This document shows positions 33,418-38,368 of a stretch of 64,000 bases of DNA, one piece after another. Position 1 is the first letter of the stretch, and each line of letters begins with the position of its first letter. The stretch is from Modestobacter italicus (GTDB lineage: Bacteria; Actinomycetota; Actinomycetes; Mycobacteriales; Geodermatophilaceae), in contig NC_017955.1 of NCBI RefSeq assembly GCF_000306785.1, positions 4,960,001 through 5,024,000 of the forward strand, in the 5' to 3' direction. A program made the translations under genes and the position numbers. Under the pieces are notes generated by a model that was not told the origin of the DNA, made no database searches, and worked only from the letters and a program-made list of their open reading frames with translations.

Positions 33418-33663
33418 TCAGCCGAGGCCGAGGTCCCGGCGCAACCGGACGACGTCGACGGTGAAGCAGCTGTGCTCCCGGCCGTCCAGCAGCACCACCG
33501 GCACCAGGTCGCCGTACTCGGCCCGCAGCTCGGGGTCGGCGTCGACGTCGACCAGCTCCACGGGCAGGCCGGCCTCCTCACCGGCGATCCTGGTCAGCGT
33601 CTCCGCGGCGACCACGCAGAGGTGGCAGCCCTGGCGGGTGAGCAGCTGCACGCGCTCAGCCAT
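33418..33663 (-). CDS. Glutaredoxin-family protein
   Basis: The 81-residue protein (MAERVQLLTRQGCHLCVVA...) has a thioredoxin/glutaredoxin fold with the redox pair CHLC at residues 13-16 and a DLVPVVLLDG cis-Pro segment. It ends in a charged helix. It corresponds, by position between rex/hemA and a sigma factor, to the small glutaredoxin-like gene at the same place in Streptomyces and Mycobacterium. The electron donor is unknown (mycothiol or thioredoxin possible). It overlaps the acyl-CoA ligase gene by eight bases. Confidence 0.85.
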   Translation of the reverse strand: MAERVQLLTRQGCHLCVVAAETLTRIAGEEAGLPVELVDVDADPELRAEYGDLVPVVLLDGREHSCFTVDVVRLRRDLGLG

Positions 33664-35293
33664 CGGTCTCCTCCGCGGCGGCGGCGGCCGCGGCGGCCCG
33701 CTCCAGCCCCAGCTCCCGCAGCCGCGCCCGGCTGACCTTGCCGGCCAGCGAGTGCGGCAGCTCGGCGACGAAGTGCACGCCGACCGGCACCTTGAACCGG
33801 GCCAGCGACCGGGCGGCGTGCTCGCGCAGTTGCTCCTCGGTGACCTCGCCGTCCGGGGTGCGGACGACGACGGCGTGCACGGCCTCCCCGGTCCGCGGGT
33901 CGGGCACGCCGATGACCGCGCTCTCGGCCACGTCCGGGTGCTCGTCGAGGACGCGCTCCACCTCGCCGGGGTAGACGTTGAAGCCGCTGACCAGCACCAG
34001 GTCGCGGCGCCGGTCGACCAGCCGGAGGTCGCCGTCGGCGTCCCGGTAGGCGATGTCGCCGGTGGGCAGCCAGCCCGCGGCGTCCGGGCCGTCGGCACCG
34101 TCGGGCCAGAACCCGCTGAACAGGTTGGGCCCGCGGGCGCAGATCTCGCCGGCCTCGTCCGCGTCGGACTCACCGTCCTCCTCGGCGAACGGGTCGCCGA
34201 AGACGTCCTGGCGGACCCGGCTGCCCGGGTCGGGGCCGGCGGTCGGGCCGCCGGCGGTGTCGCGCAGGACGAGCTCCACGCCGGGCAGCGGACCGCCGAT
34301 GCACTCGGGCTTCGCCCGCCCGGTGGCCAGCGTGCTGGTGAGCACCGGCCCGGCCTCGGTGAGCCCGTAGCCCTCCCAGACGGTGACCGCGGCCCGGGTG
34401 CGCATCGCCTCGAACAGCGCGCCGGGCATGGGGGCGGCGCCGCAGCTGGCGGTGCGCACCGCGGCGAACCCGCGGCGCAGCGCGGCGTCGCTGCCGGCCG
34501 CGTCGGCGACGGCGAGCCAGGCGGCGTACATCGGCGGCGCGCCGGGGACGGCGGTGACCTCCTCCTCGGCCATCAGCCGGAGCGTGGCCGCCGGGTCGAA
34601 CTCCTCGACCAGCACGGCGCAGGCGGCGGTCTCGGCGACCAGGCCCCAGCCGGCGTTGAGGCCGTAGACGTGGAAGAGCGGGAGGACCAGCAGCACGCGG
34701 TCGCCGGTGCGCACCGGCGCCGGGTCCAGCCCCAGCAGCTGCTGCTGGTTGGCCAGCAGGGCCGCGTGGGTGAGCATCGCGCCGCGCGGGCGGCCGGTGG
34801 TGCCGCTGGTGTACGCCAGCAGGGCGAGCGCGTCCGGGTCCTCGGGGTCGGCGGGGGCCGGGTCGTCCGACGCCGGCGGCCCGACGCTGACCGGCACCCC
34901 GGCGAGCTCCTCCCGCGGGGTGCCGACGACGAGCAGCCGGGCACCGGAGTCGCCGAGCAGGTGCTCGGTCTCCGGGTCGGTGAAGGCCGTGTTCACCGGC
35001 ACCACCACCAGCCCGGCCCGCAGCGCGCCCATCACCGCGACCACCCAGTCGACGCCGTTGCGCAGCTGCACCGCGACCCGCTCACCGGGGTCGAGCCCGC
35101 GGGCCCGGTACCCGGCCGCGGCCCGGTCGACCCGGGCGTCGAGCTCCGCCCAGCTCAGCCGCACGTCGCCGGCGACCAGGGCCGGCGCGGCGCCGGCCGC
35201 GTCGGCCGCCCGGCGGACCAGCGCGGAGAAGGACCGCACCTCACCGGGTCGCGCCGCGGCCACGTCGGCAGCCGGCACCTCGTCGACCGGCAC
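33656..35293 (-). CDS. Long-chain fatty-acid/acyl-CoA ligase family protein
   Basis: This adenylate-forming enzyme of the AMP-binding family is 545 residues long. Motifs are LLAYTSGTTGRPRGAMLTH (P-loop), VWEGYGLTEAGP, TGDIAYRDADGDLRLVDRRRDLVLVSGFNVYPGEVE, and the C-terminal SLAGKVSRARL with the catalytic Lys. An acidic insertion (DPFAEEDGESDADEAGE) lies between A5 and A7. The acid substrate cannot be told. GTG 35293 has GGAGG six bases upstream. It is divergent from the sigma-factor gene and overlaps the glutaredoxin gene downstream. Confidence 0.88.
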   Translation of the reverse strand: MPVDEVPAADVAAARPGEVRSFSALVRRAADAAGAAPALVAGDVRLSWAELDARVDRAAAGYRARGLDPGERVAVQLRNGVDWVVAVMGALRAGLVVVPVNTAFTDPETEHLLGDSGARLLVVGTPREELAGVPVSVGPPASDDPAPADPEDPDALALLAYTSGTTGRPRGAMLTHAALLANQQQLLGLDPAPVRTGDRVLLVLPLFHVYGLNAGWGLVAETAACAVLVEEFDPAATLRLMAEEEVTAVPGAPPMYAAWLAVADAAGSDAALRRGFAAVRTASCGAAPMPGALFEAMRTRAAVTVWEGYGLTEAGPVLTSTLATGRAKPECIGGPLPGVELVLRDTAGGPTAGPDPGSRVRQDVFGDPFAEEDGESDADEAGEICARGPNLFSGFWPDGADGPDAAGWLPTGDIAYRDADGDLRLVDRRRDLVLVSGFNVYPGEVERVLDEHPDVAESAVIGVPDPRTGEAVHAVVVRTPDGEVTEEQLREHAARSLARFKVPVGVHFVAELPHSLAGKVSRARLRELGLERAAAAAAAAEETDG

Positions 35294-35450
35294 GACGGAC
35301 CTCCGCAGGGTCAGGGCGACCGGCCGGGCGGCCGGGTCGCGTGGACGCAGGGCTCCGATGTTGTCACCATGGGGCGCGGGCCGCAGCGTCCCCGCGCGTG
35401 CTCGGCCAGGTTCCCCCTCGGGTGGGGGCGTGAGGAGGCGCGGGACCGGC

Positions 35451-36062
35451 ATGACCCGCGCCCGTCCCACCCCGGCCCCTCCGCCGGTCGCCGCCCCTGC
35501 GCCACCGCCGGACGACCAGCGCGCCGTCTGGGAGCTCGTCCGCCGGGCCCAGGACGGCGACGCCGAGGGCTTCGGGGAGCTCTACGACCGCTACGTCGAC
35601 GTCGTCTTCCGCTACCTGTTCCACAAGGCCGGCGACCGGGCGACGGCCGAGGACCTCACCAGCGAGACCTTCGTCCGCGCGCTGCGCCGGATCGACTCGC
35701 TGAGCTACCAGGGCCGGGACGTCGGCGCCTGGCTGGTCACCATCGCCCGCAACCTGCTGCTGGACCACGTGAAGAGCAGCCGGTACCGGCTGGAGGTGCC
35801 GACCGCGGACATGCGCGACGCCGACCGGGCCACCGCGGGCCCCGAGGAGGCGGTGCTGCAGCGGCTGGCCGACGCCGAGCTGATGGCCGCGGTCGCGCGG
35901 CTGTCCGCCGAGCAGCGCGAGTGTCTGCAGCTGCGCTTCGTGCAGGGGCTGTCGGTCGCGGAGACGGCGGCCGCGATGGGCAAGCGGGAGGGCGCCGTGA
36001 AGGCGCTGCAGCACCGGGCGGTGCGCCGGCTGGCCAGCCTGGTACCGGAGGGGCTGCGGTGA
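35451..36062 (+). CDS. bldN: ECF sigma factor, probable BldN orthologue
   Basis: This 203-residue protein is an extracytoplasmic-function sigma factor. Region 2 covers about 27-95 (AEGFGELYDRYVDVVFRYLFHKAGDRATAEDLTSETF split across it) and region 4 covers 148-195 (RECLQLRFVQGLSVAETAAAMGKREGAVKALQHRA). The gene order hemC-hemA-rex-glutaredoxin-sigma-membrane protein-HAD matches the Streptomyces bldN locus, and the next gene has a consensus BldN promoter. The N-terminus is short and Pro-rich; an in-frame ATG at 35358 would add 31 residues, which could act like the BldN pro-sequence. Confidence 0.82.
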   Translation: MTRARPTPAPPPVAAPAPPPDDQRAVWELVRRAQDGDAEGFGELYDRYVDVVFRYLFHKAGDRATAEDLTSETFVRALRRIDSLSYQGRDVGAWLVTIARNLLLDHVKSSRYRLEVPTADMRDADRATAGPEEAVLQRLADAELMAAVARLSAEQRECLQLRFVQGLSVAETAAAMGKREGAVKALQHRAVRRLASLVPEGLR

Positions 36063-36102
36063 CCGGTGGGGCCGGTCCGGCACCGATGACCGGCCGGCAC
36101 CC

Positions 36103-36131
36103 CGTAACGGCCGGTGCGACGGGGTCGTTGA
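36103..36131 (+). promoter_or_regulatory. Consensus BldN-type promoter upstream of the anti-sigma gene
   Basis: A -35 CGTAAC (36103-36108) and a -10 CGTTGA (36126-36131) are separated by 17 bases. Both hexamers match exactly the published Streptomyces BldN consensus as I recall it (CGTAAC and CGTTGA, 16-18 spacing). The predicted start near 36139 gives a leader of about 50 bases before the GTG at 36190. In Streptomyces, rsbN is itself transcribed by BldN, so the arrangement implies negative feedback. Confidence 0.75.
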
Positions 36132-36189
36132 CCGGACAGGGGTGCCCGGTGCGGCGGCGCCCGGGGCGAGCGGGACGCGGAGGGACACG

Positions 36190-37380
36190 GTGACGGGGCA
36201 CGACGACGGCGCGCCGGGTGCTGCCCGCCGTGGCGTCGGGCCCGCCCGGTCGGAGGAGGCGCTGCTCGGGCGGCTGCAGGCGCTGGCGGCCGAGCACGCC
36301 GCCACCCCGGACGAGGACTTCCGCACGGCCACCCGGGCCCGGCTGGTGGCGATGGCCGCCGTCCGCTCCCCCGCCGCAGCGCGCGCTCCCCGCCGGCGGA
36401 CCCGGCTGACGGCGGGCCTGGTCGCTGCGGCGCTGACCCTCGCCGCGCTCGGCGGGCTGCTCGCCTCCGCCCAGGGCGCCCGGCCGGGCGACCTGCTGTA
36501 CGGCGTGAAGCGCGGCGGCGAGCAGACCCGGCTCGCACTGGCCGGCGACGACCGCGGCCTGACCCTGCTCGGCTTCGCGACCACCCGGCTCGACGAGCTC
36601 GGCCAGCTCGTCGGGGTGCAGCCGCACGCCGCGCCCGTCGCCGGCGTCGTCCCCGCCGGGAGCCCGGTGCTGGCCGCCGGCCCGGACCTCGACCTGGTGG
36701 TGGACACCCTGCAGACGATGGACGCGCAGACCGCGGAGGGCACCGCCGCGCTGACGACGACGGCCGTGACGCACGCCGACACCGGCGCCCTCACCGTGCT
36801 CACCGGCTGGGCCGACGCCCAGCAGGCCGGCATCGACCGGCTGGCCCGGGCCGTTCCTCCCGGCGCCGAGGCCACCCTGACCGCCGCCCGCGACCTCGCC
36901 GTCCGGGTCGCCGCCCGCGGCGCCGACCTGGGCCGGGCGCTGGGCTGCCCCGTCGGCCCGTCGACCGGGGGCACCGACGAGCTCGGTCCCCGCCCCGCCC
37001 CCTGCCCCGCGGAGCCCGCGCCGCCGGCTGCTCCCCCGACGGCTGCCGGCACGACGGCACCGAGCACCACGGCCGCCGTGCCCGCGACGCCGAGCAGCGC
37101 GCCGACGAGCGCGGTTCCCGCGGTGCCGACGTCCGCCGCGCCCGCGCCGACCTCGCGCACGGGCCAGCCGCTGCCGAGCCTCCCAGTGCCCAGCCGGCCC
37201 GCGCCGAGCCTCCCCGCGCCGAGCCTCCCGGTGCCCACCCTGCCCGTGCCCAGCCTCCCGCTGCCGTCGCTGCCCGGCGGACCGGCACCGTCCGCGCCGC
37301 CCGGCCCGGTGGTCTCCGTGCCGCCGGTGGTGCCGGGGGTGTCGGTCTGCCTGCCCCCGCTGATCACCGTGGGCTGCTGA
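36190..37380 (+). CDS. DUF5667-type membrane protein, probable anti-sigma factor (RsbN-like)
   Basis: The 396-residue protein has a cytoplasmic N-terminal part of about 70 residues ([31 protein letters not shown]) that could bind the sigma factor, one transmembrane helix at about 73-95, and a DUF5667-like extracytoplasmic domain ([22 protein letters not shown]). The last 120 residues are a Pro/Ser/Thr/Ala-rich tail with repeated PSLP and VPSLP units. GTG 36190 has GGAGGG upstream. It lies 127 bp after the BldN-like gene. In Streptomyces, RsbN at this position is the BldN anti-sigma factor; that role here is inferred from position, topology and promoter. Confidence 0.7.
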
Positions 37381-37453: not shown

Positions 37454-38368
37454 GTGGTCCGAGTGCCCTTCCGCGGCCGTGCCGCGCGCATGCCGGCGGA
37501 GGTCGACGACCACGAGACCCGCGCGCTCGTCGCGGGTGAGGCGTCCGCCGCCGCAGCCGAGACCGACGTCCCCGAGGCCCCCGCGCCCGACCGCACCGCC
37601 GCCGCGTTCTTCGACGTCGACAACACGATGATGATGGGCGCCTCGATCTTCTGGTTCGCCCGTGGCCTGGCCGCCCGCAAGTACTTCACCGGTCGCGACG
37701 TCGCCTCGTTCGTCTGGCAGCAGTTCAAGTTCCGGGTCGCCGGCACCGAGGGCGCGGTCGACATGCACACGGTGCGGGACAACGCGCTCGCCTTCGTCGC
37801 CGGCCGCCCGGTCGAGGAGATCGTGCAGGCCAGCGAGGAGATCTACGGCGAGCTGATGGCCGACCGGATCTGGTCGGGCACCCGGCTGCTGGCCCAGCAG
37901 CACCTCGACGCGGGCCAGCGGGTCTGGCTGGTCACCGCCACTCCCGTGGAGCTGGCCTCGATCATCGCCCACCGGCTGGGGCTCACCGGCGCGCTGGGCA
38001 CGGTCGCCGAGGTCGTCGACGGGAAGTTCACCGGGCGACTGGTCGGCGAGATGATGCACGGCGAGGCGAAGGCCCAGGCGGTGCGGGCGCTGGCCGAGCG
38101 CGAGGGCCTGGACCTGTCGCGGTGCACCGCCTACAGCGACTCCACCAACGACATGCCGATGCTCAGCCTGGTCGGCACGGCGGTCGCGGTGAACCCCGAC
38201 TCGGAGCTCAAGGCGGTGGCCCGCTCCCGCGGCTGGGCGGTCAAGGACTTCCGCACCGGCCGCAAGGCCGCCAAGATCGGCGTCCCGACGGTGGGCGCAG
38301 CCGCCCTGTCCGGCGGCGTCGTCGGCGGCCTGGTGGCCCTCCGCCGCCGCAACCGCTGGCCCTTCTGA
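37454..38368 (+). CDS. HAD-IB family hydrolase (SerB/CicA-like)
   Basis: The 304-residue protein is a haloacid-dehalogenase-type phosphatase. Motif I is [13 protein letters not shown], motif II is [12 protein letters not shown], and motif III/IV is [16 protein letters not shown]. The final 30 residues contain a hydrophobic segment ([17 protein letters not shown]) ending in basic residues, so it may be membrane-associated. Substrate is unknown; related proteins act on lysophospholipids or phosphoserine. GTG 37454 has GGAGG eight bases upstream, and TAGGGT at 37410-37415 is a likely -10. The gene is conserved next to bldN in Streptomyces. Confidence 0.88.

Follow-up and report, generated by a model that had tools for sequence, protein, structure and literature searches.

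Does the Modestobacter italicus chromosome carry a BldN sigma factor that governs the gene for its own inhibitor, and if so, what else does that factor control? BldN is the sigma factor that enables Streptomyces to raise aerial hyphae, and the chaplins are its classical targets. The question is raised by a 64,000-nt stretch of contig NC_017955.1 (positions 4,960,001 to 5,024,000; here called the window, with coordinates counted from its first letter), in which three elements follow one another on the forward strand: a sigma factor gene (35451..36062; 203 aa, ATG at 35451, stop at 36062), a predicted σBldN-type promoter (36103..36131) and the gene for a probable membrane-bound anti-sigma factor (36190..37380; 396 aa, GTG at 36190). 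From comparison of sequences, the locus can with good confidence be read as the Geodermatophilaceae form of the circuit formed by BldN and its anti-sigma factor RsbN, and a negative feedback loop at the gene pair is very likely.

The window sigma was identified as an orthologue of σBldN by its nearest solved structure together with shared neighbours (hemA, rex, glutaredoxin and a HAD-family hydrolase). Its closest match in the PDB is 6dxo_A, σBldN of S. venezuelae, with an E-value of 6.4e-53, the next chain reaching 6.1e-24. TIGR02952, the 'BldN family', is its best NCBIfam model, ahead by 80 bits, and identity with the proteins of 11 Streptomyces loci is 59-62%. At E≤1e-40 an orthologue is present in 101 of 112 Geodermatophilaceae genomes. 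An earlier note on this DNA had judged the N-terminus to be shorter than in BldN, which was borne out: 28 residues precede the conserved LVRRAQ motif, versus 87-153 in six Streptomyces loci with starts preceded by a ribosome-binding site and 68-91 in five other Modestobacter, several further loci having given no such start or no LVRRAQ motif. The shortest N-termini, 28-34 residues in four genomes, belong to the window's own clade. The window sigma thus lacks the long extension (at least 87 residues) seen in those loci of Streptomyces, whose σBldN is processed as a proprotein.

The promoter consists of a -35 hexamer CGTAAC (36103-36108), a 17-nt spacer and a -10 hexamer CGTTGA (36126-36131). 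The motif CGTAACGGCCGGTGCGACGGGGTCGTTGA has no other match within the window (0.00 expected from 100 shuffles). The genome-wide search proposed earlier, run as CGTAAC-N15-19-CGTTGA over the whole 5.58-Mb single-contig genome, returned this site alone (backward-read control, 1), and the shortened form CGTAAC-N16/17-CGTT likewise occurs only here (control, 1). The site had been described as an exact match to the BldN consensus; this is correct for both hexamers and not for the spacing, which is N17 in the window and N16 in the consensus quoted from PMC2375139 (CGTAAC-N16-CGTTGA). Both spacings occur naturally, and the site was classed as a BldN-type promoter on its exact hexamers. Transcription would likely start at 36139, eight bases past the -10 hexamer, where 87% of the 61 N17 promoters in the family have a G. 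The T preceding CGTT (36125 in the window) is invariant across the 78 family loci with the promoter core defined below. For the anti-sigma gene a ribosome-binding site, GGAGGG, is predicted at 36179..36184, the choice of start being backed by relatives.

Conservation was assessed with a family promoter core, CGTA[ACT]C-N16/17-CGTT, searched for in 95 Geodermatophilaceae loci; six of the 101 sigma-bearing genomes (G050, G069, G071, G105, G106 and G107) lie outside this set. Of the 83 loci with an anti-sigma gene, 78 have the core in the gap between sigma and anti-sigma; none of the 10 loci lacking that gene has it, and both of the two in which contig ends obscure the state of the gene do. Its chance level is 0.0007 per locus in shuffled sequence, and it was seen in 0/95 control regions upstream of sigma. 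N17 is the commoner spacing (61 loci, N16 having 17); spacings of 10-15 and 18-22 gave nothing, and those of 23, 24 and 25 gave one, one and two loci. Where the gene is kept the hexamers are fixed and the spacer varies. Across Actinobacteria, 70 of 80 named loci possess the core, 9 of 11 from Streptomyces among them; the upstream control for these loci contains it once.

The product of the second gene had been put forward as a probable anti-sigma factor, and profile alignment supports its being the RsbN orthologue. When 77 family proteins were aligned by hhalign with 12 RsbN proteins of Streptomycetaceae (genera g18 and g20 being outside both this set and the comparison of conserved sigma columns given below), a probability of 99.6% and an E-value of 1.3e-23 were obtained, and the alignment takes in helices 2-3, the transmembrane stretch and the part outside the cell, so that homology to RsbN extends along the protein. 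One of the 12 matches chain 6dxo_D (E 1.3e-36), which carries the deposit label 'BldN' and by sequence is the anti-sigma partner. In the window protein the counterparts of RsbN helices 2 and 3 occupy residues 22-63 (36253..36378). They are followed by a single predicted transmembrane stretch at about residues 72-94 (36403..36471), placed by reading the sequence and by the hydropathy of relatives, and by a DUF5667-like extracellular segment (residues 97-141; 36478..36612) with a Pro/Ser-rich tail. Of the former description as a single-pass protein with a DUF5667-like domain, the one hydrophobic stretch stands, and the domain scores 20.7 bits, under the Pfam cut-off of 27.

The two genes do not always occur together. 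Ten genomes, nine of Modestobacter and G084, have lost the anti-sigma gene and kept sigma, and the HAD gene then adjoins sigma across a gap of 80-226 bp. Placed on the sigma tree, the loss takes four changes (G084, G032, G009 and one clade of seven), pointing to at least four independent events. Relocation of the gene was rejected, there being no match elsewhere in any of the ten genomes (G032 being only 70% complete), and a search of nine sigma-less genomes gave only three weak matches (E 0.001-0.005). Nor does sigma appear to be decaying in the ten, none of which has an internal stop codon. Changes at conserved columns number 5-8 in the seven-genome clade and one in each of the other three, the mean of 78 other sigmas being 1.24 with the broken row of G075 (40 changes) included. 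A reading frame left intact without its anti-sigma gene implies that some other control must exist. In eight Geodermatophilus genomes (g16) sigma itself is missing at E≤1e-40, and an AMP-binding ligase gene stands beside HAD in all eight. Two of the ten genomes without the anti-sigma gene retain what look like decayed promoters, CGTGCC-N17-CGTCGA in G009 and CGTGAC-N16-CGTCGC in G084, and the flanks of the former resemble those of the sister locus L010.

A second site, unlinked to the first, lies about 200-230 bp before nadD, where the exact CGTAAC/CGTTGA motif recurs in several Modestobacter. The window's own genome has CGTGAC-N16-CGTTG there, with one mismatch. Counting as a site at most one mismatch in 11 positions, 50 genomes were compared: 20 Modestobacter and 30 chosen others. 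Of these 30, eight are all the Geodermatophilus genomes without sigma, one is G084 and 21 carry both genes. G015 was left out of the count because its stretch is not the proA-nadD gap, and G012, G032 and G033 gave no nadD match. The site was present in 26 of 32 genomes with sigma and anti-sigma, in one of nine without anti-sigma (G009) and in none of eight without sigma (both genes versus sigma-less, Fisher p 3.9e-5, uncorrected for kinship). This distribution suggests that the promoter upstream of nadD very probably belongs to the same sigma.

Two other accounts of these promoters were weighed. According to the first, the BldN-like sigma is a mere neighbour, and another extracytoplasmic function (ECF) sigma with a similar preference reads the promoter; counting the window sigma itself, the genome does hold 21 matches to it at E≤0.001, and hexamers of AAC/GTT type are widespread in ECF promoters. 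We consider this account improbable, since the hexamers adjoin the sigma gene in most named loci as counted above (70/80), the nadD site is missing in 8/8 Geodermatophilus genomes without sigma, and the hexamers equal the consensus quoted for BldN in PMC2375139. The second account treats promoter and anti-sigma gene as one deletion unit, so that their joint loss says nothing about which sigma reads the promoter. The seven-genome Modestobacter clade fits it, the whole stretch between sigma and HAD being gone there (gap 80-108 bp). Because one deletion can remove both, and with only four independent pairs available, co-loss was rejected as independent proof. The weight was placed instead on three other observations: the hexamers stay fixed, decayed copies remain, and the nadD site is unlinked. 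Hexamers held constant beside a variable spacer in loci that keep the gene, mutated promoter-like remnants in G009 and G084 that have lost it, and a similar pattern at nadD together leave the deletion-unit account very improbable. That the window sigma would itself read the promoter at 36103-36131, and that it would bind the membrane protein, is what we infer.

Several observations pull the other way and lower our confidence in the BldN/RsbN assignment. The window sigma scores 191.4 bits against TIGR02952, 15 bits short of the cut-off of 206.45; among eight proteins scored only those of Streptomyces (263.2) and Micromonospora (212.4) exceed it, with Pseudonocardia (194.8) and four named Geodermatophilaceae (180.1-205.8) below it too. 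Among the 83 family loci with an anti-sigma gene, five have no core (L010, L130, L187, L198 and L200), L010 having CGTGAC in a promoter otherwise intact and L198 a decayed one. The core is also wanting in 10 of the 80 named loci: L062 and L063 have lost the anti-sigma gene; L081, L089, L090 and L095 have AGTAAC or AGTATC with CGTTGA instead; L112 ends near the sigma gene at a contig end; and L077, L082 and L123 have none, L112 and L123 being the two core-less Streptomyces loci. The remnants in G009 and G084 carry three mismatches each, a level that the best unrelated match (G016) also reaches. In a test on phylogenetically independent pairs, an average of 2.9 pairs went in the same direction, 0 in the opposite one and 1.1 showed no difference, and with four pairs only, significance was out of reach (p 0.25). 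The nadD site is lost in eight of the nine genomes that keep sigma without anti-sigma and absent from six of the 32 with both; the correspondence between promoter and sigma is therefore imperfect.

The remaining objections concern the anti-sigma domain. The helix-1 motif FA-x-[ALV]-[LV], present in 12/12 Streptomycetaceae proteins, is found in 0/77 family proteins, so that of the three-helix domain only helices 2 and 3 are recognisable, as judged from sequence. A deeper lineage, L201 (g18), retains an FAELV segment. Helix 1 of RsbN (RRxNAFAQALE in Streptomyces) is reported to contact sigma-4 together with helix 2 (PMC7406223, PMC8103513). With the motif absent, sigma binding may differ from that in Streptomyces. 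The N-terminal domains by themselves gave no significant alignment (hhalign probability 1%, E 0.022), and the kinship of the anti-sigma domain hence rests on collinearity. A short cytoplasmic domain with neither the motif nor a significant alignment of its own would also suit an effector or sensor under sigma control rather than an anti-sigma factor. To this we assign little probability, given that the protein is collinear with Streptomyces RsbN from helices 2-3 across the membrane into the extracellular domain (E 1.3e-23) and occupies the same position beside sigma. An RsbN-type anti-sigma factor thus remains the preferred identity.

Two family loci depart from the usual arrangement of the pair. 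In L130 (G100) the anti-sigma reading frame opens where the sigma gene ends, leaving no promoter in between, and translational coupling may have replaced the feedback loop. In L184 (G091) the gap between sigma and HAD is only 878 bp and the anti-sigma gene is still detected, perhaps in shortened form.

A conserved hairpin, GACCGGC-N-GCACGGGGG-N-GCCGGTC, stands behind the nadD site. Its loop, CACGGGGG, is nearly invariant, being found in 26 of 27 predicted transcripts, with one G fewer in G066, and four of ten base pairs are changed on both sides in an alignment of 23 of the 27 sequences. Folding z-scores are below -2 in 23 of the 27 (mean -3.4), and the RNA of the window's genome, predicted at ∼180 nt, has a z-score of -5.4. 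This probable RNA gene with its BldN-type promoter is outside the window, in the proA-nadD gap (G000:C1:1711766-1711996, equivalent to L232:1270-1500). Farther on, after another hairpin, nadD appears to have a promoter of its own, a leaderless one of TAGGCT type a few bases before the GTG, which makes a role of the RNA as nadD leader less likely. The promoter upstream of nadD thus appears to drive a small structured RNA. That its G-rich loop pairs with C-rich sites is speculation.

The hairpin outlasts the promoter in some genomes that have lost part of the circuit. Among the sigma-less Geodermatophilus, G082 keeps the hairpin with a mutated promoter and G083 has both altered, and a pattern search found no hairpin in the other six. 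In the seven-genome clade without anti-sigma the promoter hexamers are lost and the hairpin is kept in six. As a separate observation, in Modestobacter G001, G005, G008, G013, G029 and G034 the inverted repeat GACGGCATCGTC, once part of the spacer, has stayed conserved after hexamer loss, which hints at a separate protein-binding site upstream of nadD.

In an order-wide search with a covariance model of the hairpin (E≤0.01), 92 of 397 genomes gave matches; 60 of the 92 belong to the family and 32 do not. The out-of-family matches, of which the best reached 2.0e-5, are more than the rough E-values predict; in the 20 of these 32 places that were fetched, neither nadD nor the promoter core was found within 2.4 kb. 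The RNA gene of the proA-nadD gap appears, on this comparison, to be confined to Geodermatophilaceae. Three genomes of one non-family genus share a similar hairpin with an ACGGGGG loop, which is not next to nadD and lacks the promoter core (L344, L357 and L358, in G306, G126 and G420). An Rfam scan of five loci gave no family at gathering score, and weak matches such as ASpks, with 23 of 52 bits, were set aside. A literature search for a small RNA at nadD or proA found none, and papers on Modestobacter small RNAs were, by title and abstract, unrelated.

A wide BldN regulon was not supported by promoter matching, the core motif occurring once in the window's genome. Across 23 Modestobacter genomes the exact motif has 17 places, 11 at the anti-sigma gene, three at nadD and three elsewhere (control, 3), and the looser CGTA[AT]C-N16/17-CGTTG has 41, with 12 at anti-sigma, eight at nadD and 21 elsewhere (control, 8). 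These 21 exceed the control count. When 17 of the 21 were compared with one another no two were alike, so no further recurring target emerged. A search for chaplins (PF03777) gave no match in the window's genome, nor in 14 control genomes, so that the search had no positive control there; matches were found in 4/112 family genomes and none in the other 108. Unusually for the family, G113 (L335, L339 and L340) has two frames with many ChpA-C repeats, amounting to 17 matches.

From these observations a mechanism can be proposed. The cytoplasmic N-terminal helices of the RsbN-like protein would hold sigma at the membrane, by analogy with the S. venezuelae complex. A signal would free sigma, and RNA polymerase with sigma would then read CGTAAC-N16/17-CGTTG promoters. 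Because a BldN-type promoter lies directly ahead of the anti-sigma gene, released sigma would make its own inhibitor, and the growing supply of inhibitor would shut the response off; in Geodermatophilaceae, freed sigma may also transcribe the proA-nadD RNA. The gene pair, its orthology, the sequence and conservation of the promoter and the missing or decayed promoter in genomes that have lost the anti-sigma gene are observed. A bolder proposal, which we advance tentatively and rate at somewhat less than an even chance, is that BldN has been rewired in this family, its core regulon comprising, in place of chaplins, the gene of its inhibitor and a new structured small RNA specific to the family, with stepwise erosion of the circuit visible in living species. 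The steps of that erosion would be loss of anti-sigma with sigma kept (at least four times), decay of the RNA promoter, disappearance of the RNA and finally loss of sigma and anti-sigma together, as in the eight Geodermatophilus.

These results bear on how a developmental switch is used. The family retains BldN although 108 of its 112 genomes show no chaplin match. The predicted outputs conserved best, the inhibitor of BldN and a structured RNA, are few enough to be tested one by one. Strains in which anti-sigma has repeatedly been lost in nature, with sigma intact, offer ready comparisons for how cells manage when nothing guards the sigma factor.

In the window the gene order is hemC-hemA-rex-glutaredoxin-AMP-ligase-sigma-anti-sigma-HAD, with hemC, hemA and rex assigned by reading their sequences rather than by family search. 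The glutaredoxin-like protein (33418..33663) and the AMP-binding ligase (33656..35470, an open frame with an uncertain true start) are encoded on the reverse strand, and the HAD-family hydrolase (37457..38368) on the forward strand. It had been claimed that this order equals that of Streptomyces. In six Streptomyces/Kitasatospora loci, the HAD gene was found between glutaredoxin and sigma, and the ligase was detected in none, so the claim does not hold: the window has an added ligase, which the earlier note had missed, and HAD on the other side. Upstream of sigma, a block TTGTCACCATGG at 35361-35372 is kept in 80 of 95 family loci. It may serve the divergent sigma/AMP-ligase pair as an operator or promoter element; as a BldD site it is doubtful, since it does not fit the BldD palindrome.

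How much of this was known? A 2013 review (PMC4255298) reports a reciprocal rsbN-like hit beside nearly all actinomycete bldN orthologues, convincing bldN orthologues only in morphologically complex genera, and a BldN-dependent promoter for S. venezuelae rsbN, and asks what developmental genes do in simple organisms. It was the only paper found that joins BldN and Geodermatophil- names. The earlier note saw the BldN/RsbN circuit reproduced outside Streptomyces; the orthologous pair and its promoter are there, and the novelty is not, given this review and the core in 70/80 named loci. With the circuit itself already known, what is new is the lost helix motif, the repeated losses of the anti-sigma gene and the RNA promoter.

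Compared with σBldN/RsbN of Streptomyces, the window locus is alike in its orthologous sigma, its adjacent membrane-anchored anti-sigma factor, its promoter hexamers and its neighbours hemA, rex, glutaredoxin and HAD. It differs in having no helix-1 motif, an N-terminal extension of 28 rather than at least 87 residues, an inserted AMP-ligase with HAD beyond the anti-sigma gene, a genome without a chaplin match, a second target that is probably an RNA gene and a TIGR02952 score below cut-off. RsbN is described as the prototype of the class III anti-sigma domain, ASDIII (PMC7406223, PMC8103513), in a passage that in PMC7406223 swaps the names BldN and RsbN. The helix-3 core P-D-x-x-F-R-x-x-x-R-x-R-L-V-A-M and helix 2 of the window family align with RsbN, whereas helix 1 is missing by motif in 77/77 proteins; L201 (g18), outside that set, keeps FAELV. 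The proA-nadD RNA loosely resembles the Ms1/6S-like RNAs described in PMC9130861, being a structured intergenic actinobacterial RNA of about 180-230 nt; that study did not find Ms1 in Geodermatophilales. Ms1 was rejected as its identity because the neighbours differ, and the RNA is set apart by its position between proA and nadD, its CACGGGGG hairpin loop and its BldN-type promoter.

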